From assembly GCF_028389875.1 (NCBI RefSeq), contig NC_084670.1, forward strand, positions 10,201,383-10,265,382: 64,000 nucleotides of DNA. Direction: 5' to 3'. The notes beneath the pieces are model-generated. The model saw nothing but the letters and a program-made list of their open reading frames with translations, was not told where the DNA came from and did not search any database. The position numbers and the translations under genes are program-made. Shown here piece by piece: positions 7,200 to 61,915 of the stretch (within the stretch, counting starts at the first letter, position 1; each line of letters starts with the position of its first letter). The DNA comes from Rhea pennata (taxonomy: Eukaryota; Chordata; Aves; Rheiformes; Rheidae).

Positions 7200-7900
7200 C
7201 ACTCAGGCTGGGCAGCAAACGGAGCCCGCTGGCGCTCGGACGACTCTCGGGCCGTGCTCCCAGCCCCGGGACCTGCCTGGCAGCACGAAGCCTGGTCGGG
7301 TCTCGCCAGGAGCGCACGTTTGCGGTCCCCCCCTTCGGGATGGGGGTGAGCCGCCGGGTAACTGCCCTTCGGGGGCGGGATTTCAGGTCCCGTCGGTTGG
7401 ACCGCATTCCCGAAACTCCCCAGCCCCGTGCTGGCTACTGGAGAGATTTTGCCGGTCGGGGTGTTTTATCGTGTTCTGTTCTCCCCTGCCCTCCCCACCC
7501 CCTTCTCCAAGCCCTGAGGGAAGTGTCAGGTTCAAGTCACCTGCCCCCAAAATTCCCAGGCAGCCCGTGCTGGGCAGGGCGGGCGGAGGCACCTCCCGGG
7601 GCAGGGCTGCAATAGGCAGGTGTCAGCATCGGCCTCCCGCGACGCGTTTGATAATTCACCCGGCGCTCGCTGCCGCGGGAGGGCTCCGGCGCCCGGCGAG
7701 CAGCGCCCGCGCCCGCCCGCCGGCATGCCCGCCCGCCGGCTCGCCGCCCCGTGCCTGCTCCTGCTCCTGCTCCTGCTGCTGGAGCCCGGCTCGTGTCAGG
7801 AAGGTGAGCGCCCATCGCTCCGGCTCGGCTCCCCGGGGAAACCGAGGCGCGGGGAGCCGGGGGCAGGTGGCCGAGGGGCACCCCGAAAGAGCTCTCTGGG
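7200..7900 (+). promoter_or_regulatory. CpG-rich promoter and first exon region of PDZK1IP1
   Basis: This 700-bp stretch is much richer in G+C and CpG than its neighbours (for example GACGACTCTCGGGCCG near 7240 and CCCGCGACGCG near 7640), and it spans the ATG at 7725 and the first donor at 7804. No clear TATA box is seen near the start codon, as is common for CpG-island promoters. The transcription start site is not fixed by sequence alone. Confidence 0.7.
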
Positions 7901-10900
7901 GGAGCGTCCTGGTTTTGGCTTTGGCTTCGCGGTAGTGGGGGCAGAGGAGAGGTTTGGTGCTCATCAGGCTGCGAAATCTTGCTGGAAACGAAGAGCAGAT
8001 AGTTTTTCCCTGTTTAGTTCAGCACTGACACTCTTGGCAGAGATTTATCTCACCTAGTTACTCAGAGGTAAAAACAACTCTGATTTATCTCCAGCAGGAC
8101 TGTGCACTGCGATGAGTATTTTGTTCTCTTAAGGCTTGTTATTTTTTCTTCTTTTTTTCTTTTCTTTTCTCTTCTCATTCTTCCACAAAAATGCATTGTG
8201 CTTGCTTGCTTTTCCTGTTCATTGAAACCTCATATATTCTCTTGTTAATCTTTAATGTCGATCATTGTTGAGGTGCCAGGAGGAAATATTTTCCTCTGCA
8301 AACTGTGCTTCCATTCCCTTCCTGAAGACTTGATAGAGAAATTTCCTATCACTGTGACAGTAGTTTTATGCCATTCATGAAAGAACATAAATCAGGAATA
8401 ATTAAAACTAATCAGATCCTTGCAAAGTCCTGGAAAATTCCCTCCCCCTTTCTCCTTCTGATGCCCCAACCTTGACTGCTCTTCCTGTATTTGTTTACTA
8501 ACTTGCTAAGGATTTAACAGTGTGGGGTCTCCACCGTCAGCAGGATTAAAAGTTTAGCTGTTGCCTTGAAGGAAAAAAGCCTTTAGCAAGGGTTTAGAGC
8601 CTGGTACAACCTTCTCAGACGTGACAAACCACAGGCAACGGCTGATGTTTTCCGAGCACTAGAGGAGGATGCATCAAAACACGTGTACGTTCATTCAAAC
8701 AACCCTTGATTACAAAAGAGTCAGCATGGGCAAGAGCATATATTGACACTGGTGTTTTTCTTGATCTTGTTTGTGCCTTCAGGTGCGTGGGCACCGGTAT
8801 GTTGATGAGCACAGGGGTTACACCCTGCATTGCCTAATTTGGCTTCGAAGTTCTTGTCCAAGGAAAAAAAAACTTGCCCCAATTGCCTCCGGGCTGAAAG
8901 CAGAGGAGGTGGAAGGGCCATAAGGCATCCTCGCCTGGGAGTATCATCCCTGCTAAGGAATTTTTGGGGGAACGTAGTTCTGCTTCTGCAGGCAAGAGTA
9001 ATTATTTCTGCTGTTCCTTCTCAGCAAGATAGCAAGGTGTATTGCCTTTTGTGTTGTCTTGCAACACCTCTTCCCAGCGGTGTGCTTTGTGTGGATGTGT
9101 CTCAGGGCCCGCCAGGCAAGGCTGAGATTTGCATAGTTCCTTCCTGATAAGATTGCAGCCACCTGACTTTTGCTCCTGTCTCTGCCTGGTTGCTGCTCCT
9201 TCTTTAATATGCCTGTGCAACCTCCTTGTGCCCACCAGGGCATTTCGGCCTGATGCGGCGGGTATTCGACATTTCCACTGCCATATTCCTCCTTGGTGCC
9301 AGCCTCAATGCAGGGGTCACAAGCCAGGGGAGGCTTGAGGGGAACAGCGCAGGACCCACAAACCTGGTCCAAGGGCATGGGCTGATGGAGGAGGCGAGTG
9401 GGGAGACCCTTTTCCCACCATGAGAGCCTCCCCCCCCCATAGGCTTCGAGATGGGAAGGGAGTAATTTCGGCTTGGAGTGCATCTCAGCAGCAAGGAGGT
9501 GAACCTGGCTGTTGAAGCAGGACTTCTTTAGCCTCCGGGGCTGAGGGCAAACTTCAGGCAAGGCAAGGCTTTTCCCTGGGCTGGGGCAGGCTCTCTGGGA
9601 CATGTGCAGCATGTCGCCATGCCGCCTGTGTGGACATTGCTGCCTTCTGCTTGATTTACTTTCGGTGAAACAATCCGAGAAGGGCCCAGCCCAGGCGCCT
9701 GTGCTCAGGACTTGTGACTGCTCCACTCACGTTTAAATCCTTGGCTCCTCAGTTCCCCCTGCAGCAGTGCTTTCTGAGGTCTCTCAAAAGCAGCCCCACC
9801 TGATCTAGGTTTGAGTTTTTCCCCTTTGGCTTTGGATGCTCTGAAGTCTCATGAAAACAGCTGCTTGAGTGAGATTTCCCTTGAAAAAAAAAAAACCCAC
9901 ACAGTACCTCCCAAGACTAGCTGGCTAGAGGAAGTTTCCTGCCCATTTATCTTCTTACCTCCTTTGCTGAGAGATCAAGAGATGCAAGTTTTGAGATTTC
10001 GGTCACCACTGAATATGGGTATATCTAGATTGGCCTTGAACTCCCTTTACCCCAGCAGCAACCTCACTGAGGACTGGATCCAAGCATCGCTTCCTAGGCT
10101 CAGATGGAAAACGCTGGCCCCGGCAGGAAAAATAAAACACAAATAATGAATAAATCTGGCAGCGATGACAGCCAAGGACAGGGCAAAGAAGGAAACAGAG
10201 CAGGCCAAACCTAAAGGCGGTTTTCAGGAGTATGCTTGAGGCTGCACCCTTGTGTGGGCAGCCAAGGCAGGACCTTCTCCTCCATGCCAGATACCCCGGA
10301 ACAATGCCCAAGTCCTGCTCCTCCCTCCAACACCTCTCATCTCTTTGTTATTGGTAACAACAGCCTGCTGATGCAAGGGGATTTCAGCTGAAGCACACTG
10401 ATACAAGAGGGAATTTCCGTCTGCATTCCTCTGAGCAGAGTTTGGCCCTAGGACTCATCAGTAAACACATCTAAGTGTCACTGCCGGCTTGCTCGAGCGA
10501 GGGCTTACTGCTATTGTTCTGCGACTCCGGCTGGCCGGGGCTGCTCCCATGCCTGGTAAGCCCAGGGTGTTTCCAGTTCCCCAAGTAGCAGTGAGTCAGC
10601 TGCCCACCCGCGGCGGCCCCAAGGGTTTGCCTGCCAAGCAGCAGTCCCGACTGCAGGAGATGGGCAAGGAGTGATATACTCTGGGGCTGCATGTATTTGC
10701 TCTGTTTTCTAATCTGAGTTGCACTTCATGGTTTCACCACCATGAGAAAAACAGTTCCTTGTTGGTCGTGGTGTATGTTGTTTTTAATAAAAGCCAAGAT
10801 CCTCTTGCAATAGCATGATCTGAGGATCTGGCACTCTTAAAGAAGACAATCCCCCTTCCCCCAAAGAGACCAAAGAGATGAGATAGCTGTCAGCAGCAGA

Positions 10901-13900
10901 TCCAGTGTGTAGCTGACTGTGGATGTTTAGTTTGCAAATATAGTTTGCACAGCTCACCTTTATTGCCTCTACTAAAGATCATTTGCAATTTATGGCAGAG
11001 ATTTGTCTACTGCAAGCATTCAGCTGGTGCAGACCTCCAGCGCCAGAAGGAAAATACAGGGCAGCAGTATTTGCTGAGGCTGAGGACAGCCCCATGACAC
11101 AGGCCAGTGCCACTTTCTGCAGACCTCCCTGTGGTCAGCCTGTGCTCTGTGCCCTCTGCAAGGGCTTCCTCACATGCGGGCTAGCAGATGGCATGGAGCA
11201 GGTTATTGTATGGATTGAGGTCTGATGCTCCCTGGCAGGGAGCTTAACACCTTCCCCTCCGCCTGGACCCATCTATTCACACTGGGCTGTGGCTGGTAGG
11301 TTTGGTTTATGTGCAAAGATTATGTTTTTTGATCAACAGAAGCAAGAAAAACCTTACCTGAACAAAGTGATAATCATATCCTGAAGGAATGTGTCTACAC
11401 AGTCTTAACATCTCTTAAGTTCTCTTTTCAACATTTTTCAGCAATTTTCAACAAGGATGGGTCTGAGTATGTTTGAGTATGGCAGCCCATGAGAAGTGTT
11501 AAACCAGCAGTTTGAGCAAAAGACTGGGAACCAAGATTTTCCTCTTGGTGCTAGCCTTGAGTTTCTTCTGCATCCTGGAGTACATCTCACAACCTTTCTG
11601 CACCTCTGCAAGTGTTCGTGTGACTAGATCACTTCTTGGGCATGGTTACAGAAAAGTGAAACTCTCTTTTTCAGATGTTCTTGTAAACAGACTTGCTGAA
11701 CCAAGCCAGGCATGTGGTTGTATGCTAGCTGTGCCAGTGTGTGATAAGGTCCTGTCTAGTCGGGGTTTTGCTTCCTCCTGGTCCTTCCCTAGAAAGCTTC
11801 ATGTCCTGACTGACAAGTCAGGTAAAGGCAGTGTTGTCCCATGTGAGGGACTGTGGTCAGTGAGGTCCCAAGTGACAGTGCACCGGTTTCACCAGAGGGT
11901 TGATATCAGCAAGGTTGTCTTGAAGTTCACTGGCCCTCACCCCTGGCCATCTCACGGCTAAAAAAAAAACCCTGTACAGTGTCATCTTTTGGGCCTGTAC
12001 AGAGTCCTTATTTGACCAGGCAGTGTTTGGAAAATAAGCGGGAACATTGTCTGTGGGACTTTGGGATCCAGAGTAAGCAGTTGGTTGAAACCCCTCTTCC
12101 ATCTTTCCCCCACCACTTCAGACAAATACTATCACATTTGGTCAGGTCCATAGCTTTACCCATTAGTAATTCTGGTATTTTTCCTGTTTAACACACACAG
12201 GCTTTCTGTCTTCCTTTGCATTTATTTCCAAGTGTTTAATAATTGTCTTTTAGATTTTCTTCCAGCTACACACAGCAGTATTTGTGCTCAGGTTCACATT
12301 ATAAAGACAATCAAGGTTTGCCACGCTATTCAGGGGAGCCAACCCTAAAATATCTGTCATCTTTGGGAACCTTTCTCCTCAGCCTCTGATTTATTTATTT
12401 TTTTTCTCTTGCTCCTGCCTGTATGGGGAGTTTTCCTCGGTTTCCCCCGTCAGTGCTGCTGCCAGTGCAGCCCCGTCGCTTAAGGGCTGCACTGGTTTAA
12501 CAGCAACGTGCTCTTCTTGGCTTTGCAAGACCGAACTCTTGGCTGGACGTCACTGAAGCTGGTATGAGGAAGCTAAGCTGAATTGGTGAAGTGCAAGGAT
12601 GTATTTCTAATATGTGTTATCCTTTCCTTTTGCAGCCCGGGGTAACCTCCAGCCATGGTCACAAGGTGTCATCGCAGTGGTTGTGTTTCTAGTCCTGGTG
12701 GCCATCGCTTTTGTGGTCAATAAGTTCTGGTGTAAGGAGAAAGAGTAAGTGCTGGGAGTCCCAGGCACCCAGGGGTTATTCTGGGCTTGGCTTAGCTCTC
12801 GCTGCACCAGCATCTCTGCATGGGTCACTTCTAATCGCCTCTTAGATCTGTTCCAGTGCTGGGAACACAGCGATCATTGCACAGAGCAAGCCAAAAACGT
12901 CGAGAAAAGACTGCCTGTCCTGTTCTCTGATCACGTTAACTTCTTGACCTGGCAGCACTCTGACACCATGCAGCCCCTTGCAGGGACATTGCACGCACTG
13001 TTATTTAAGAGTAGACTGCGCGGGGAAGTGCAGATTACGTCATGCTGGGCACAAGGGTCTTCACAGCACTGAGCTGTACCGGAAGGTCAAGGTTGTCCTT
13101 GCCAAGGTTAGCTCAGGTACAGCTCCTCCATCCCATACGAACATGGCTTTAGGACAAAAGATGAGGTGAGCAGACTGGTGCCTAAAGGGTGAACACAACA
13201 GGGAGCCCTGGAGGTGCTCAGGTCTCGGAGGAGAGCAGAAGCATCCTGGGACAGGGTTCACTATTACTGAGGATGTGCAGGCCATCCAGAAGAAGGCCAT
13301 GCAATTCAGCTGCATTAACCCCTCTTGAGAAGAGCCTAGTTGTTCAAGTTTCAAGTCTGAACTTAAAAGACTACAAGTTTGATTTGTAGTCAAGACACTT
13401 CTGGCCCTGTGGAAAAGGGAACTGAGGGATGGTGAGCAGAAATAAGTGTTTTCCTGAGCCTGGTTTCCTAAAGATTAGAAACTGGTGATCTGAATCTTGA
13501 ACTGAATTATACAATGGCTGCAGCATGAGCTGATTCCCTACAAAGATGCCAAAGGAGAGTAAAACCCTTCCTGAGAAGTGGGTACTCTCAAGGCTTGTTG
13601 ATGACAGCTTCCTCGGACTTATTCCCTGTGCATTTGCCATGGTTTCTTGGTGTCAAAGTTGAATTCATACAGTGAACCAAAGAGGGAATTTATCGGGGTG
13701 TGATCCCAGGGGCCTCATGTCCGTGGGAAAACAAGCCAAAAATAGCAGGAATTGCAAAGCAGATAAAGTATGCAAAGATGTATGAAAGGAGCTGGAGAAG
13801 AGCATGACAACAAAGCCAAGACAGCTCTCTATGCAGAGTCTGGGGCACCGACAAGCTAAGCAGGCTGAGCTGAGCCCGCAGGCAGCAAGGCCCATTACCC

Positions 13901-16475
13901 TTCATTCGCTTCAGGCTAAGTGAGCATGCAGACTGCTATTCCTCTCAGCTGACCCATGGTAACTTGCTAAGCTGCAGTAACTTGATCTTGAATCCGAGCC
14001 CAAAGTCAAGGGAAAGATAGAAGATGGACTATAGCCTTGTTCCTACTTGCTCTGTTCCAGCTCTGGCACGCTGGGCTTTCCACCAGCTTGAGGTTTCTTA
14101 TATCTGCGCAGCTCTGCAGCCTCTCCAGACATGAGGAGAAGGGAGGACCTAGAGGGATCTAGATATATCTGTGCTTACCAGGGCAGCTTCCAGCCCAGAC
14201 ACATTTAAAGGGAGGCATTCAGCTCCAGCTGAAACAAATATATGAGTGTGTGTGTGTGTAATATATATGTAGATATACACACATATGTACACACACACAC
14301 ATACATAAACATATCTCCTAATTTGCAGCTTTCTTTTTTTGCATCTGTGAAGTTGTTCCGCAGTCTGGACTGAGCTAAAATGCAGTCTATGTTTGCCAAA
14401 GAGAAACCACTGTCCTTAAACCGAGTCAAAGGAGACCTTGACCCACACGGCAGGAATCAGAGATGCCACCTCCTACCTCTGCCCCTGCCTGCTGGGCTGC
14501 CTCTTCCCAGGGGCACAGAGGTGTCCCTGGCTCCAGCACCAGGGCTCTGCTCTGCCGGCGAGACCAGCGAGGAGGCCTGGGGGGGATGGCAGCTCGTTTT
14601 AATTAATCTGGCCTCTCTTCAGAAGAGATGCTCGCAAAGCTCAGCAGCCTGGCATGCTGCCAGCTCTGCGCTGTCAGTTTGACAGCAGTTATCAGCTTAA
14701 GTCACTGCCTGTTTATGCCGTTCTGTTCCTTGAAAAAGTCTCAGAAATTGCCCTTTAGCGAGCACTAAAGGAGGCAGCAATGTGCACACACAAGGGACCT
14801 GCATCCACCCACCCCAGCTAAACTCTTCTGTGCCTCTGGGGCCATTTGGTTCAGGGGCTCATTCCAGTCTGAGCTTCTCAGCTCCAGCTGAGGTTGAACA
14901 TCCAGCTCCTGCCTTGCAGTTCCTTCTGAAAGGGGTTCAGACTTAGATCCAAACGGGAGCTCTTCAGTATTGCCTGCACGGATACACAGGCACACGCAAA
15001 CACACCCCTTCTGCACCCGTCGAGGTAGAGTCTCTGCATTGTTCTGTGTGTCAGTTTGGACTGCAGGTGACTGTCTTGCAACAGATCACATAGAAGAAAT
15101 CTGGAAAAACCAGTTAGCAGGAGAAAACAATCCCGAGTATTGACTAATGAGTCTGACTGAGTGCCGCAATACTGTCACCAATCCAGGCTGGTGCTGGGAG
15201 TGCTAGCTGCAGTCACAGCTGGATTGCAGGACTGGGTTAAGAGGGAACTGGGGTGCACAGCTGAGCTCCCTGGGGAGCCCTTCTTTCATCCTGTGGCAAA
15301 AGAATCCCCAGGACTTTCTGCCTGGGCGAGCTGCAGCTCTTGGCACTCAGAGTACGGGAGGAGCCGCTGTAAAATTCACTGTGTAACTCAGCAGTGAGGG
15401 GCGTCTTTCCTCTCCTGTGTCCTGGTGGGAAGGCAGTTGGAGTCTACTGCTGCCCCAGGCAGCAAGTTCAGGATCATAGGTTTGGCTGAAGACCCCTATG
15501 AGCCAAGAGAGCGCTGATAATCTGGGAAGCCCTCCCTCTCCCGTATCGTCAAGAGTTCCAGCTGCTCTTTCCTTGCCCACATCAGTAAGGTTCTTCCATT
15601 GCTCTGTCTCAATTCCTACCAATGGGCTCTTCCTTCTCCCCCTTCAGGGAAAACGTCGAGGCAGTGGTGAGCATCGGAGACAAGCAGGAAGTTGTCCTGT
15701 CCAATGGCCATGAAGGGAGATATGTAACAGCAGCAGCTGACTTCAGGTGAAGGCCTTGTTCAAGACTTTCTCCCTGAGCCTCCTGGCTCTGCTCTGGCCC
15801 TCTGGGCATGCACAGCCATGGCTTCCCTCCCACTCTGGGTCTCACAGATCCTATGTATCTGGTTGTTGTGGCCCATATCCTCCACAAGGGCAAAGAAAAG
15901 GTAGTGAAGAATCCAGTTCTCCTAGTCTCTCCCCTTCCATGAAGCCAAGTCCCATGGTCCTTCCACCACCTTGTAACCTGCTACACTGTGGGGTTTTTTA
16001 TGCTGCATGACACCTTTGAATAGGGGAGATCAGAACCACCAAATCATGACCCTAGGTCACCATCCAGATGCTGAGTGTCAAAACAGTCATCTCTATGACC
16101 TCCACTACATGCTCCTGGTCTTAATTGTCCCCCTCAGAGAGGGATCCCTACCTCCATCCCAGCCTCCTTCTTTTGCAGGTTTAATAGCTTGGGAAGGAGA
16201 AGCCTTTAAGATCCTATGTTGACCTCCATGCTTGCCTAACTTCCTACCCTGGGATTGCTGCAAGCACAGAGTCAGTCAGTACGTGGCTGACACAGGCATA
16301 GTCAGTGCCCCAGCAATGCCTTTGAGGAACCTGTTCTTTTTGCTGGAGTCCAGCCTAATCCCTGTGTGAGCTAACTGCCTGTGCTTTTCTCTCCCATTTC
16401 AGGTCCAAAGAGAGCCAGCATGCCTATGAGAACCCCTTGGAGCCTGAAGAGAAGGTGGTCACCACTGCAATGTAG
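7725..16475 (+). CDS. PDZK1IP1: PDZK1-interacting protein 1 (MAP17), complete, 4 coding exons
   Basis: Coding exons are 7725-7803, 12636-12744, 15648-15746 and 16403-16475, all with GT-AG borders and matching phases, giving 119 aa (human about 114). The protein has a leucine-rich signal-like start (residues 7-19), a short lumenal part with the GNLQPW signature, one membrane span at about 37-54 ([10 protein letters not shown], near-identical to mammalian MAP17), an FWC stretch after it, a cytosolic tail with HAYEN, and a C-terminal PDZ-binding TTAM. In mammals this small membrane protein binds PDZK1 and other PDZ proteins at the apical membrane of kidney tubule cells and affects sodium-coupled transport. 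The ATG is chosen because it gives the signal-like N terminus and no earlier in-frame ATG fits. Introns are about 4.8, 2.9 and 0.66 kb. Confidence 0.96.
7804..12635 (+). other. PDZK1IP1 intron 1
   Basis: The intron runs from donor GTGAGC to acceptor TTTTGCAG. It holds a T/C-rich tract at about 8143-8185. Some chance open frames exist in it, but no conserved coding exon or RNA gene is recognised. Confidence 0.85.
14239..14311 (+). repeat. TG/TA/CA dinucleotide microsatellite
   Basis: A GTGTGT run is followed by ATATAT and then ACACAC, inside PDZK1IP1 intron 2. The alternating purine-pyrimidine make-up is typical of a compound microsatellite. Confidence 0.9.
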
Positions 16476-22363: not shown

Positions 22364-22406
22364 CCTTGTGATAAGGTACAACACACCTTATCACAAGGTG
22401 TGTTGT
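22364..22406. repeat. Two overlapping perfect inverted repeats
   Basis: Hairpin 1 has 14-bp perfect arms at 22364-22377 and 22385-22398 with a 7-nt loop. Hairpin 2 has 12-bp perfect arms at 22378-22389 and 22395-22406 with a 5-nt loop. They share bases, so they cannot form together. Confidence 0.9.
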
Positions 22407-23429
22407 GATAACACACAGTCACATCTTTAGTGTGGGGAGAAGGTGTTCAGAAAGGGTTCCCAAGCAGTGGTTTTAGGTTAGCATATGATTGTTTCCAAGG
22501 GGCTGGAGAAAGGCATAGAGGAGTCAGGTAAGGACTCTTTCCTCTGAGTGTTTGGTGCCTTCATGCATGCTGTACACTGGAGACCATGCATCTCTGTCTG
22601 TCCGTCATATCCGCCCACCCAGACAGTGGAGATCATCTCCTCCTTCAGCCCTATTTGGAGGCCATCTGTTGCAGTGTTGCACCCAAACATAACCCATTTG
22701 AACACTGCAGGGGAAGATCTGATGTAGAGCAAGCAGGAATAGGTTGGCAAGGCTCTTCAGCTGCGGAAGCTTCAGATGTTTCTACTCCAGCTGTGGCCAC
22801 AACCCCGGAGCCCTTGGGCAAAGCTTACCCCCTTCCTTGGATACCCAGGCACACTCCAATGCGATTAGCTGTGTTAAGGCACCAGCAAAGATGGGTTAGC
22901 ACTGCCTAGCCCTGAGGATATGTAATTCCGAAGTGATTTAACTAAAGACTTGCTGTAAACAACTGCTCCAGCCTCAGAGCAGCCAAAGCTTGGAGTTTGT
23001 GTCCTTGTGGTGGGCCGTGAGGAGCCCCTGCAGTGACTGCGTGCAGACCCTAGGAAGTGAGGAGGGAGTCAGGTATAGCGCACTGGGGCCAGAGCTCCTC
23101 TCTGCTTCCCCATGGGCAGGTAGCAAATTGCAGAGGAGGAAGAGCAGATAGGAAGTGATGACAGTGCAGAGTCAAAGCCCATGGCAAGGGTGAGGCTGGT
23201 GGCAGCCTATGAGTGCCTGGATCGTCAGCGCTACTCCTGGAAGAGGAAAGGAGCCTGGCTGCAGCAGAGCAGTCAGCCCAGGTGGGAGCGCGTTTGAGTA
23301 GGTGTGTGCAGGCAAAGTGGCTGGGAAGTTTTTGGTCTTGATTCAAGCCACCAAAAGCCAGGAGTAAAATACCATCCATTGTTGGTTTATACACCCGTAG
23401 TAGCCAAACAAACATCCCTGGAGCCTGTC

Positions 23430-23770
23430 CTTATCGCCTTATTACACCTGCTAGAATGAATAGATTAAAGAGGACAGGGGAGGGGGGAGAAAGCAGAAGA
23501 ATCCAGCAGAAAAACTGGGTTTTGGGATTGTTAATTATTCTCTGGGGTCTCTAATCTTTAACTGGCAAACAGCATCACTAACTGTCTTAAAGCCCCTCCT
23601 GGAACATCCTGATAATAAGCCATCTGCATGAAGGCACCCCGTTATCTGCCCTCCTCCAGCCGCCTGTGACATGGCTGGAGTGGGAGATAATGAATGTGTG
23701 GCGTGTAATAACGACACGTCATTCACGATTATCGGGCTGATACCTAACCTTTTAGCTTCATTGTTTGTGC
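23430..23770. promoter_or_regulatory. Candidate haematopoietic enhancer (TAL1 +40-like position)
   Basis: A CTG at 23599-23601, then 8 nt, then TGATAA at 23610-23615 is an exact CTG-N8-WGATAA composite, the recognised TAL1/GATA1 co-bound motif. Further sites follow: E-box CATCTG 23621-23626, TTATCT 23642-23647, GATAA 23686-23690, TTATC 23729-23733 and GATA 23739-23742. It lies about 6 kb beyond the 3' end of PDZK1IP1 and before the CYP4 genes, which is where the mammalian TAL1 +40 erythroid enhancer sits. Activity and homology are inferred. Confidence 0.5.
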
Positions 23771-23771
23771 T

Positions 23772-23855
23772 AAAAAAAAAAAAAAAAAAAAAAAAAGTGA
23801 GAGAGAGAGGGGGGGGTGGGGAAAGGAGGAGGAGGGAAAGAAAGAAAGGGGAATT
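23772..23855 (+). repeat. Poly-A (25 A) followed by polypurine tract
   Basis: Twenty-five A (23772-23796) run into GAGAGAGAGG and GGAGGAGGGAAAGAAAG-type sequence, giving over 80 nearly pure purines. Confidence 0.9.
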
Positions 23856-26074
23856 TTTTGTGCTATAAGCCCAGCCTGGTGTCCCTGAAGCATCTCCCTG
23901 CCAAAGGGGCTGGCTCCCGTGGCATCTCCAAGGTGGTTTGGTGGTACCCTGTAAGAAATCGCCCATTGATTGGCAGCTGCTGTAACCATGGTGATGAAGG
24001 GAGAGAGACGAGAAAGTGCCGAAATGTCATCGTGTGGCAGAGGGACATTTGGGGCAAACGTTCTGGCGATTAGATTTCTGTCACTGTGCCCTGCCCAGCT
24101 CCTCGCGCTGCTTTCGCTTCTCTTGAAGCCATTTAATGTTGGTTTCACAGGGGAGGGTTATCTGGTGTCTCTTTAACACGCTGCCATCCAGAAACTCCCA
24201 GTATTTAAAGGCAGGAGGAATGTTTAGGTTGCCTGGTTTCACCTGGATAAACTGGAATGTGGAAGAATTTTTTTCCTAGTTGCTGCCGTGCTGAGACCAC
24301 TTTAGAGCCTGAGGGTTAGTGACATGTTGGCAGTGGTAGATCTTCCACCAAAATCCTTGGATCTCATGCAGAGAGATTTCAAATCTTGGTTACTGGTAAT
24401 TCTGTCCAGGTGGGAAGAGACTGTTTAAAAGTGTTTGGTTCAGGTTACTTCAATTATTTTCAGAACTGTCTGCAAATATGGTCCATTTTTTGATCAAAAA
24501 TGGAACTAGGTTTATCTGTGTTTCCTGAGCAGATTTCCCACAATGATTTCTCCAGAAAAGGCCTTGCATCAAAATCATCAGGGTCTGGCCACTCACAAAA
24601 ATCAGAAAGACTGCTGAAAACCAAACAAGCAGCCTTAACAGTAATTAATGGGGCAATCCTAACAAGGCTTCTTGCTGTTAAAGATCTCAAGACACTTTGT
24701 AAGGCTGGACTTGGAGGGAAAGCAGGGCATGAGATTACCTGGAGGTTAGAGGTAGAGATCAGAGATCCTGTCTCTCTATGCCCCCTCTGCTGTGCCCCCT
24801 TCCACTTTGACTGCTTCTTTCTCACCTGTGCCTGGGTCAAAGATCTGGTGTGATCAGTTTTTAGCTGCATTTCTCTCTGTTCTGTGTTCTCAGACCTATC
24901 TCAACCAGATTTCTCCTGGTTCCTGTGGAAAGCCTACTTGGGTCAGCTGCCAGAAACTGGACAGAGGGTGGTGTGAGTCCCTAGTGCAGGCACTGCTTGG
25001 GTTTGCAAATTGGACTGGGCCAGATCTTCCAGCCAAATGTTCCCCAAGCTCACTGACTACCAGTTGGTCATCAGAGTTGCAAGATATCTTTTTTTGTTCC
25101 CTGACAGGTGATTGAAACATCTGATACATGATGAAGACTGCAGAGCAGAAATAAATCTCAGCACTCCCATTCAGACAACATGTGCTCTGCAAATAACACA
25201 CCAGCTCCAACGATCAGACCTGCAAGGGTTGTGGATTTATGCCTTCGAAGCAGCTACTTGGTAATACATCTTATAAGACTACCCCTGATGACTTGGGACA
25301 ATTTAACCCTTAGAAAACCTCCCTTTCCTCTTGCAGTCAATCCTGTGCTCTGGCAGTGCAAGATGACTTTCTGCTACTTTGTGTTCAGTGGGATAGGCAT
25401 GACCATGCTGGAGGAGAGCTCAGCACAGCTGGCTCACATGGCAACCTACCCTCCAGTCATGTTGACAGCTGTGTCCCAAACCAAATGTAGCCAGTGATGA
25501 AAAACTGCATAAAAATGCTACCTTTCAAGATCTTGCTGTGCTGGAGCTGGGGGTGGGAAGAAAGAGTTTGACACTAGTTTGAGTTCATGGATGATGGAAG
25601 GAACACTGCATTAGCATCTACACAGTCTGTGTCATTTCTTTCGTGGGACGAAAAGGGAGGGAGTTGGGAGGAGAGGAGGAATTCTGTCTCCAACTGCTTT
25701 GCAAAATTAATGCAATCCAAACCTTATGTGTTTATTTACAACATCTCTATCTCTTTAGATGTTCAGATAGTCTGAATCAAGAGTGGCCGAATGTAGGTCC
25801 AGATGGGGCCCTTGAGGCAGTTCTATTTCTCAAACTCAGGATGTAGCAGGTGTGGTGGGCAGGGAGAAGTGGTAGACCCTTAGGGGCTGTCAAGATCCAA
25901 TTAGATGTGATGCCACTCAGACTTGGCTCTCTTGGTCTGACCACAAGCAGAGAGAAGCTGCCCAGCTTCCTCTGAGAGACAGACACAGTCTGGAGTTAGG
26001 ACCTTCTGCTTGGTCATATCAGCATCAGGCATTTAAACAGCATCTGATAATCCACTATGCTTGTGAAAGGTGGC

Positions 26075-26330: not shown

Positions 26331-27874
26331 ATGCTGAATAACCTGGTACCTGCAGTGGCAAGTGCTCCCTAAAGATTGGTGCTTCAGCCTTCGCAACTGA
26401 TAGTGGATGCCCAATTGCATTACAGTTGGGGACGGTGATAGCAGCTTGGTCTGCTCTGCTCCCCTCCATAGCAGAGAATGGAGATGGGTCAGGAGGCCCC
26501 TGACAGCCCTGCTGGGATGTGGCTCATAGCCACCCCCATCCTCTGCTAAGGCATGCTACAGGCATGCGTGTGGAAATGAAGCGTGGGAAGAGCAGATGCG
26601 CTCTCTGACCGAACTGGATTGGGAGCAGGATGTGTGCTCAGACTCGAGGGGTCAGAACATTTCCAGCACTGCCAACCTAGGCGAAGCTCGAGACTTCACA
26701 GCATGTGAGAGGTGGTCAAGAAGGGTACAAACCCTTCTGTGGCACGGTACCCTCCAGCCAGCCCAGGCCACCAGCCACAGAGAGAGCTCTGATCATCGAC
26801 AGAGATGCAAGCTTGTATTGAAAGGTGCCTGTCACTGAGGAGTGCTGGGTTCTGATTGGAGCTTGCAGATGACCAAATAACATATAATTTGCTGTTTACA
26901 AGAATTTCCTCTTTTTCTGTTACAAAATCAAGCCTACCTTTGCTGGAGCAGTGTTTCTAGCCCTGGTGGTTTGGTTTTTTTCTTCCCTTGGTGCGACAAT
27001 AGTGATAAAGGGCTTCCCTGAACACAGCTCAGAGAGGGTTGAAGAGCTCTGTGTTTTTCTGAATCTCTCACTGCCACCTAGTGATCTGTTTTCGATCAGT
27101 CTCTGGGAGACTTGGCGCACCTTAACCTGGAGCATTTCCCCGCTGTGCAGCCTCAGGGATGGGGGGTCTGGCAGCAGGTGCGTGTACCCCTAAAACATGC
27201 TTGTCCTAGGACCAGCCCTTCCCAGGCCCAACATCTGCCCATGCAAGTGGAGCTCCCACCTTTGCCTCTCTGCCGACTTCAGCTGTGAAAGCCCTTGCTC
27301 ACCTTCCTGCCTCTGTGTTTCATTGCCAAATCCAGTAGGAACATAAATAACCTTAATCTCTCTGTAATTGTAGTCTCTTCATGTACAGCAGCACCTTTCT
27401 CTGGCACAAGGCCTGCTTTTTGCCTCTCACTCCTATACTGGGCTGTCAGTTGTCAGGATTTTAGAAGGATTTGAGGAGAATCCTTGCTCTCACTTGGGGC
27501 ACTTTCTGTGAATGAATTTGTTGTTGCCACTGCCATTTGGGAGTGATTTTTGTTTTGCTTTGTGTTAACCCCGATCATCTCAGTAATGTACTTTATCACG
27601 CAAACTCAGAGAGGGCAGAACAACAGCCTTAGCAAGCCATGATGTGGGAGGGGTAGGAACGGACTCAGCAGGGGTAAAGGAGAGCAGGAGCTTCGCAGCT
27701 TGAGTAATGACTCACAGAACTGCATCCTCACAGTCCTATTTGCTTTGTCTCCTCTCCACCTCCTCGGCCAGCAACAGAGCAAAGAGGGCATGGCTTTGTC
27801 TTGGGGGTGCCAGGCCTCATCTTGTGCAACCTGCCCCACAAATACAGAGGAAACTTTGCTCCAAGAACACTACA

Positions 27875-27880: not shown

Positions 27881-28363
27881 CTCATTTCAGAGAGAAGCAG
27901 AGGATAAGTCTGTTAACACTCACTGTTGAGAATGGTAAGTGCTTTCTTTCTCCGGCTTTCTAATAACATGTCTCTGAGCTGGTCCCTGAGCACCCTCAAC
28001 TCAAGGAAGTTCATCACTGCCAGAAACAGACACTTGCTTTCATTTCCATAATGCGAGGCACAAAACCAGTCAAGAATTGTTTAGTGGGGAAAATTTCTCT
28101 CAGCATTTAGTTTAGTGGGTATTTCTGGGTATGATGTGGTTTCAGGGAGAAGTTCTCCATGCAAAGCAGATCCAGATCTAGGTCTAAGACATCCCGGGTA
28201 GGTCTGTTGGCTATCCCCTTCCCTGGAATGGGAGATCAAGTAGGATACAGGGCCGTCACCATCAGAGTGCATGGCAGTGCGATTCAGCCAGGAGAGGGAG
28301 ATACTTAAACATCCAGATGAAGGATGGTCCTTGGGAAACCACTTGCTCCCATGCTACCCAAGG

Positions 28364-36925
<8,562 letters not shown>

Positions 36926-49049: not shown

Positions 49050-51600
49050 TGTCAAGCAGCAAGCACCACCCTCTACCTCGGAGAGCTTCTGCAATACTCT
49101 GCCCTCCGCTCTGGCTACAAGGGCAGTAAATCCTGTTGTGCTCATTCCAGGGTTGCATGACTCACGCTGAGTTGCAGGTGGTTTCCCAGCACTCCCTTAC
49201 TATAACAGCAAAGAAACTGCTCTCAGAGCCAACGAGCTGCCCATGGCTAACTCTGCCCCCGAAACAAGGCTCGTTGTTAGAGGAAACTCTACATTGCAAT
49301 GCAGAGGAAGAGGAGGGCAACTGGATTCGCGTCTCAAAACAGAAGTGAACTATTTACAACTGGAAGAAAAACGCCAGCCCACATCGCTGCGCACTCACCT
49401 TCTCAGAGCTCGCTGCGTGCTCAGCACATCAGCGAGGCTGTAGTGACCCAAGTTTTTTTCCTCACAAGCTACAGACAGAAATCCCCAGCAGGATGGGAAT
49501 CCTTTGATGTTTTTTTGTCAGCTCAGGATTAACAAAATTCTAACCAAATTTGAGATGAAGCTGAACGGAACATTGTTATTCATGCACATAGTGACTTTAT
49601 TTCTTTTAGCATTTCTTCTGGTTAAATTAGCTGTAATGGGGTGTTACTGAATCATAGAAGTTGCCACAGGGCAAATTGGAGGTTTTGCTTATGTGAGGGA
49701 TTAATTTACGGTTTCGGTGCCTGGAGTACCATGGCATATAGAGTTGTTTTAAGGCCACCCTCAGCATGACATTTGTTGTGGGCTGGTAACATGTTCAGAG
49801 CGAGAGAAGAATGACACAGTTTATCTGTATTATCCTTATGTACATTATGGGAACTCTTCGTGCATTTAAAATTAAAATTGCACAGAAACTCATGTCTGAT
49901 ATAACCCTCTGTAGTCCTTTAGGAGCACACATTAAACATGCTATTGCAGTAGAAAGAAGGAAGATAAAGGTTTACGGAGCTTCTCCTAAGAAACATCATA
50001 ACGTCCCACTTCTTGGATTTACCTCCCCTCCCACGGCTGGATTGTGCATCTTCTTGTTTTGGACCATCCAGTACAAATTTCCTTTTCTCACTAGGTAATT
50101 TCTGCCATGCAGCCGTTGCTTAGACCTATGCTTGAACTAAGCCAGCCTGGTAAATTAATTTTTGCCGGTCTGCCCACCAGATGGCAGTTCCTACCATGCT
50201 ACAGACTAAGTGAAACCCTGCACTGGTGCATTACTGTTGCTTGGGAGGGCCTGGCCATTCCCCACTCTGAGCCAAGAAGCAACTTTAAGGTTGTACCTTC
50301 TTGCTCTCCCTAACAAAACCGTTTTGTGCTCAAAACAGCAGTGACTAACAGTGTGCGTGATGACATGGCTGGTGTTAGGACAAGCAGTGAGTGCTGTGGT
50401 TGTGAGAGCAGAGTTGTTCCCATCCTTTGCTCTTAGCTCCTACAAGCATGTTTTGTGACTTCATGGTTTAAGCACTTGCAGGGGGGTCAAACAGTGATTC
50501 AGTCCCAAATCTGCTGTTAAAATGTAGTATATCCTACAAAAAGGAACTTCTATGCCCCACCTTGTCCCCAGTTCTGTATCTGCTCTATCTCTACAAATCA
50601 TAGTTTTATGAAGACGGGCACTGACTTAGCCTTTTTATAGCAGCCTGCTATTAGCCTACTTTATAGCAGCCTGCACAAGATGCTTGAATTGAGGCTCTGT
50701 CGATGTCACTGTAATGCTGATAGCAACAGTAGTATTGAAGTTTAGCAGTTTTACACTTTCTACCCCAGTAATGATTTCTGCAGAGGCAGAGGATAGCTCA
50801 CTGGTGTAATTAAGTGCATCCCCAGAGTACAACTCGTATAATTTCATCATCTTAAAAAAAAAGAGGAAAAAAACAGGTTCTAACCGTCATCATTTTTCCT
50901 GGGCAGCTTCTAAATGAAGGTTGCACATTGCACTCTTGTTAATTCAGTTAACTGAAATGTGGGCAGGCAGAGCAGAGCAGACAAGGATGGGGGTGGTTCC
51001 CTGTGTCCTTTGGCCAGAAAGGAGAGGGGAATTAAAGAGAGAAGATTAGACAGAGGCAGCTGGTCATTAAACCCATCCTTGCATGTCCCACATACGAGCA
51101 GGCCTTTCTAATGCTGCATCAGCCTAAACAGAGCCTCTTGCGACATCAGGAGAAATCCTTTTCTTGCTGCTTTGTCAACCAGTGCTGGTTTATTCTTTGA
51201 TGGTCCCCATCAAAGCAGATGCTCAGTGGGCCAGGGCAGCTAGTGGTGGTGGTAGGGGCTGGGGAACAGGATGTCCTGTCCTGCCCACAGGGTTGACTGT
51301 AGAGTCTGCGAAGAGATGGCGTGGTGCTGGTGCTCTTCCCAGCAAGGAGGGCTGTGAGGCCAGGCCGTGATGGAGGAGGTCTGTGCACAGATGCCAGAGC
51401 AAGCACAGGCTTTGCAGTAATTTCTCTTACACAATTGACCAGGTTCTGGGCTACACTAAACCAGCGCAGGCTGAAATTCGCAGTGCAGTGTGATTTACAC
51501 TGCTGGGAAACATGGCCTTGTTTTTTCCAAGTTCACGTGTTTCCTTTTCATCTCTTATTTCTAAAGGATTTTTGTGATCAAGCTGGTATGCATCAACAGT
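49050..51600. other. Intergenic region between pseudogene C and copy B
   Basis: No P450 exon, RNA gene or clear mobile element is recognised. This is the stretch downstream of copy B and upstream of what was copy C's promoter. Confidence 0.6.

Positions 51601-52134: not shown

Positions 52135-61915
<9,781 letters not shown>

Follow-up and report, generated by a model that had tools for sequence, protein, structure and literature searches.

Does the DNA between PDZK1IP1 and the CYP4 genes of Rhea pennata hold a bird counterpart of the far erythroid enhancer of TAL1? The erythroid element of TAL1 lies at +40 in mouse (PMC3291548) and at +51 in human (PMC2816701), and the original prediction had placed an avian counterpart of the mouse element at 23430-23770 of the window, the 64-kb stretch of DNA analyzed here. 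We regard a TAL1 distal red-cell switch as a plausible identity for this segment, which makes a good but unproven candidate. Judged by its motifs, we give an even chance to the reading that its core, at 23.58-23.75 kb, is a distal enhancer of the TAL1-type erythroid kind, working in the manner of mouse +40 and human +51.

Gene order and distance

The sequence searched for genes and motifs was 264 kb long, comprising the window with 120 kb of left flank and 80 kb of right flank. Matches by tblastn and Pfam in the window and flanks gave the gene order STIL, TAL1, PDZK1IP1, candidate, CYP4 (Table 1), and they bear out the relative position claimed for the cluster, between PDZK1IP1 and the CYP4 genes. 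The PDZK1IP1 exon limits are approximate, coming from tblastn or open reading frames (those of exon 1 from the open reading frame). When joined, the PDZK1IP1 exons matched the Pfam MAP17 family (E 6.2e-35). Two CYP4 exon sets were found on the - strand; the joined pieces of the nearer gene matched Pfam p450 (E 1.5e-46), and its last coding exon occupies 28373-28531. The candidate at 23430-23770 lies ~7 kb past the PDZK1IP1 coding end and ~4.6 kb short of the CYP4 coding end. We took the two upstream TAL1 CpG islands as marking the promoter region, a third island overlapping the TAL1 coding exon. The downstream distance from this inferred promoter to the candidate comes to about 42-45.5 kb, within the 40-51 kb span of the +40 and +51 elements.

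Table 1 Features of the candidate and the surrounding locus, in window coordinates
Feature	Position	Strand	Basis and remarks
STIL_N domain matches	about -40.2 to -33.4 kb	+	domain match
TAL1 CpG islands, two upstream	-21949 to -20300; -19649 to -18100		computed
TAL1 coding exon	near -16.7 kb	+	tblastn
TAL1 bHLH exon	-10882 to -10688	+	tblastn; 65 residues identical to human bHLH
PDZK1IP1 coding span	7725..16472	+	tblastn
PDZK1IP1 exons	about 7725-7805, 12641-12742, 15649-15747, 16380-16472	+
Candidate distal enhancer	23380..23770	no strand	single copy found; top combined GATAA and composite score in 264 kb
Outlying CGATAA (CGATAAG)	23431..23436	-	sequence
HNF1-like site GTTAATTATTCTC	23530..23542	+	rank 4 in 264 kb; consensus model, 1 of 16 models
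TAL1-GATA composite CTG-N8-TGATAA	23599..23615	+	sequence
E-box CATCTG/CAGATG	23621..23626	+	5 bp 3' of TGATAA, unlike the usual upstream placement
AGATAA with CTG at N9	23642..23659	-	one base off the N7/N8 spacing; absent from original prediction
Second TAL1-GATA composite CTG-N7-AGATAA	23675..23690	+	sequence; absent from original prediction
CGATAA	23729..23734	-	sequence
GATA core (GATAC)	23739..23742	+	sequence
CTCF-like motif	27069..27087	-	16.0 bits, ranking third in the 264 kb
Nearer CYP4 gene, 3' exons	28373..31483	-	tblastn; tail to tail with PDZK1IP1

The genome available for copy and layout searches comprised 1.27 Gb in 180 contigs. Searched against it with very common words skipped, 23380-23770 matched only itself, and the candidate is therefore not an evident repeat. 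A repeat or retroposon origin, at which a run of A at 23772 had hinted, was set aside on this self-match, the run lying outside the query. The run itself, at the candidate's 3' edge, consists of 25 A in a row (23772-23796) and leads into a GA-rich tract. Scans of the window with Rfam (gathering threshold) and ARAGORN (tRNA genes) came back empty. We also rejected, as signs of conservation, matches to an 18-base core in 2 stretches of viral contigs and 20 of prokaryote genome contigs: in BLAST no match at the pattern exceeded 25 bases, and every one of the 20 that carried a title was bacterial. All 22 were dropped as chance.

Motifs inside the candidate

TAL1-GATA1 motifs have a spacing of N7 or N8, and the candidate holds one composite of each kind on the same strand. 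The CTG-N8-TGATAA named in the original prediction is present at its coordinates, as is the E-box CATCTG, but 3' of TGATAA; the further claim of four more GATA sites within 130 bp also holds, with five cores between 23611 and 23742 (starts at 23611, 23643, 23686, 23730 and 23739), of which three are WGATAA, one CGATAA and one GATAC. With the second composite added, the motif observation is slightly stronger than first described. The pair, as far as its letters go, fits the kind of site bound by a TAL1-GATA complex. The pattern CANNTG-N6-12-WGATAR is absent from the candidate, whose GATA sites have no full upstream E-box; it occurs once in the 17.0-28.6 kb interval, at 26423.

The observed/expected CpG ratio reaches 1.84 in 23700-23799, where the GC content is 0.33. 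The nine 100-bp bins before 23700 range from 0 to 0.45, and at 24000 and 24100 the bins give 0.72 and 0.65. The raised ratio may reflect constraint or low methylation.

The motif content also bears on a different function, in which the candidate would regulate PDZK1IP1 (or CYP4) as a kidney, gut or liver enhancer bound by HNF1 and GATA4/5/6, with TAL1 not involved. PDZK1IP1 is expressed in epithelium too. Near the GATA sites, the predicted HNF1-like site GTTAATTATTCTC at 23530 agrees with the consensus at 11 of 13 positions, the free one counted, and a weaker site lies at 23550 (rank 78 in 264 kb). The human locus offers a parallel at LINC00853, which lies 3' of PDZK1IP1. In human colorectal tumours, the LINC00853 peak forms part of a super-enhancer at PDZK1IP1 and contacts the PDZK1IP1 promoter while TAL1 is silent (PMC9576746). 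Against such an epithelial role, HNF1 was one among 16 motif models, its model is a consensus, and for HNF4 and CDX the candidate's top matches are no better than chance would give in 400 bp. Nor are two TAL1-type composites expected in a plain GATA4/6 element, and we consider this function improbable.

Motif statistics

Single motifs do not set the candidate apart. N7/N8 composites number 14 in the 264 kb, where 13.96 are expected under a third-order Markov model (936 simulations of the same length), so that a single composite occurs at the chance rate; under consensus models ending in G, the candidate's N8 composite ranks 27th in this sequence and its N7 composite 10th. Plain GATA density is likewise not exceptional. 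Per 150-bp window the candidate has a GATA count of 5, with four other clusters at 6 and at least seven others at 5, and its WGATAR count is 3 versus 4 in two other clusters; its GATAA count of 4 is joint first. These figures favor a cluster of short motifs brought together by chance in intergenic DNA that evolves neutrally.

Two composites lying no more than 100 bp apart are unusual, and this counts against chance. The candidate's pair is the sole one in the 264 kb, where 0.06 are expected, and the expectation for a 12-kb interval is 0.0027. Its layout, defined as two same-strand composites separated by a gap of 45-75 bp with one N8 in the candidate's place, was found 37 times (16+21) in the 1.27 Gb, candidate included, or ~3.5e-4 per 12 kb, and the 36 other places speak for chance. 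A reversed-pattern control for the layout gave 1 match and is a weak control, differing in composition. When GATAA sites and composites were scored together, the candidate came first in the 264 kb with 8 versus 5 for the runner-up, a score reached by two clusters in 135.7 Mb of simulated sequence. All of these enrichment scores are post hoc, having been devised once the motifs were known, a point in favor of chance; against it, the cluster sits where it was predicted. By our own estimate, the odds against chance in the named interval lie somewhere between 1 in 100 and 1 in 1000, and as an account of the candidate a chance gathering seems to us unlikely.

Comparison with mammalian TAL1-locus enhancers

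Mouse Scl/Tal1 +40 (Delabesse 2005 and Ogilvy 2007, via PMC3291548, PMC4197694 and PMC12431775) resembles the candidate in lying 3' of Map17/Pdzk1ip1 and ahead of Cyp4x; in mouse the +45 CTCF boundary comes next (PMC3291548). Its targets are given as midbrain and primitive and definitive hematopoiesis in the title of Ogilvy 2007 (via PMC3291548), and CUT&Tag in mouse brainstem places Tal1, Gata2 and Gata3 on the +40 feature (PMC12431775). Binding and activity have been demonstrated for the mouse element, whereas the candidate is known from motifs alone. Human SCL +51 shares with the candidate its GATA sites and its place 3' of MAP17, with CYP4 genes beyond; CTCF in human sits at +57 (PMC2816701). 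Three GATA sites of the human element are conserved, a GATA/E-box composite accompanies them, and the factors bound are GATA1, SCL, E2A, LMO2 and LDB1 (PMC2816701); by contrast, the candidate's composites carry half E-boxes (CTG) only. The element called +40 in human numbering is a different one, the MAP17 enhancer (PMC2816701). The original prediction of a TAL1 +40 counterpart is partly supported: the candidate's position and motif content fit, and its homology to mouse +40 and an age before the bird-mammal split are tentative.

The gene served by such an element need not be fixed. A TALE activator directed to the +40 element raised SCL ~4-fold in human K562 cells with MAP17 little changed, raised Map17 ~22-fold in mouse 416B cells with Scl little changed, and raised both genes in mouse embryoid bodies (PMC4197694). 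Since these effects vary by cell type, the target gene of +40 can differ. The available text of PMC4197694 prints neither a mouse +40 oligo nor a TALE target sequence. In mouse reporters, the Scl +19 stem-cell enhancer can likewise drive the Pdzk1ip1 promoter in addition to Scl (PMC3145975). It differs from the candidate in lying, judging by distance, between Scl and Pdzk1ip1, and in its dependence on Ets and GATA factors, the candidate's best Ets match being weak (7.0 of 16.9 bits).

In birds, ATAC-seq of chicken HD3 proerythroblasts exists (GSE206194), and a re-analysis names TAL1 as an example next to HD3-specific intergenic peaks, in an available text that carries no coordinates and so offers a lead only (PMC11066237). 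Among the titles and abstract openings of CC0, CC BY and CC BY-SA literature, we found no published chicken counterpart.

Two questions can be separated here, what the candidate does and whether it descends from the same ancestral element as its mammalian likeness. On the first, we hold an enhancer role to be about evenly balanced. Under the preferred reading, the two same-strand CTG-N7/8-WGATAA composites and the flanking GATA sites would recruit a complex of TAL1, E-protein, LMO2, LDB1 and GATA factor; the GATA member on the composites would be GATA1, with extra GATA occupancy around them. The candidate would then loop over ~42-45 kb to TAL1 in erythroid cells, and might perhaps act on PDZK1IP1 as well. 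What the sequence shows is the motifs with their unusual pairing, a search that found no further copy, and the order and spacing of the genes; binding by factors, activity, the gene served and shared ancestry are inferred. It is likely, from its motifs and place, a new bird instance of a known mammalian element type.

On the second question, true homology with mammalian +40/+51 is a tentative proposal, one to which we lean less than to the enhancer role. The candidate might instead be a real erythroid enhancer of the TAL1 locus that arose through site turnover and is not base-for-base homologous to mammalian +40. The half E-boxes, set beside the GATA/E-box composite of human +51, point this way, and in the 2002 fish comparison by Gottgens most mouse enhancers reportedly had no match; the same place and similar distance point the other way. 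Turnover seems to us a minority prospect, though its odds overlap those of the preferred reading, which does not need homology.

If the candidate is homologous, the TAL1-PDZK1IP1 domain, its far erythroid enhancer and its CTCF fence would form a unit that predates the bird-mammal split, and the red-cell switch of a leukaemia gene would be dated to before that split. The enhancer would serve both TAL1 and PDZK1IP1, and with one gene's far enhancer lying beyond the other, it would help account for their linkage. That this far enhancer keeps TAL1 and PDZK1IP1 together has already been argued by the mouse group (Ogilvy 2007, via PMC3145975).

CTCF-like motifs and a possible CYP4 boundary

In mouse, a CTCF-dependent boundary at +45 has +40 on one side and Cyp4x on the other (PMC3291548). 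In human, CTCF is found at +57 and +53 on the CYP4 side, and also at +40, -7 and -31 (PMC2816701). The predicted CTCF-like motif at 27069 may correspond to mouse +45 and human +57, and with it the window would have the order enhancer, CTCF, CYP4 in common with mouse and human. A CTCF site near 27.07 kb could fence the candidate off from CYP4. Since human CTCF also occurs at +53, +40, -7 and -31, one CTCF-like motif is not specific, and finding one per 12 kb is only mildly unexpected. A further CTCF-like motif lies at 28285 (14.4 bits). The two best of the 264 kb by the same matrix are at 50171-50189 and 58729-58747, in opposite orientation, one next to the second CYP4 gene and one within it.

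Other TAL1-GATA-type sites in the locus

Similar motifs occur elsewhere around TAL1. A full E-box/GATA composite, CAGCTG-N7-TGATAA, lies on the - strand at 2339-2357, in the TAL1-PDZK1IP1 interval, at a distance of about 21-24 kb from the upstream pair of TAL1 CpG islands; by its letters, it is nearer the textbook TAL1 site than the candidate's composites. At 22369-22411, 1.2 kb ahead of the candidate, three TGATAA are contained in an inverted repeat (TGATAAGGT...ACCTTATCA). Immediately upstream of the 5'-most TAL1 CpG island, a CTG-N7-TGATAA at about -22065 is possibly a proximal TAL1 promoter element.
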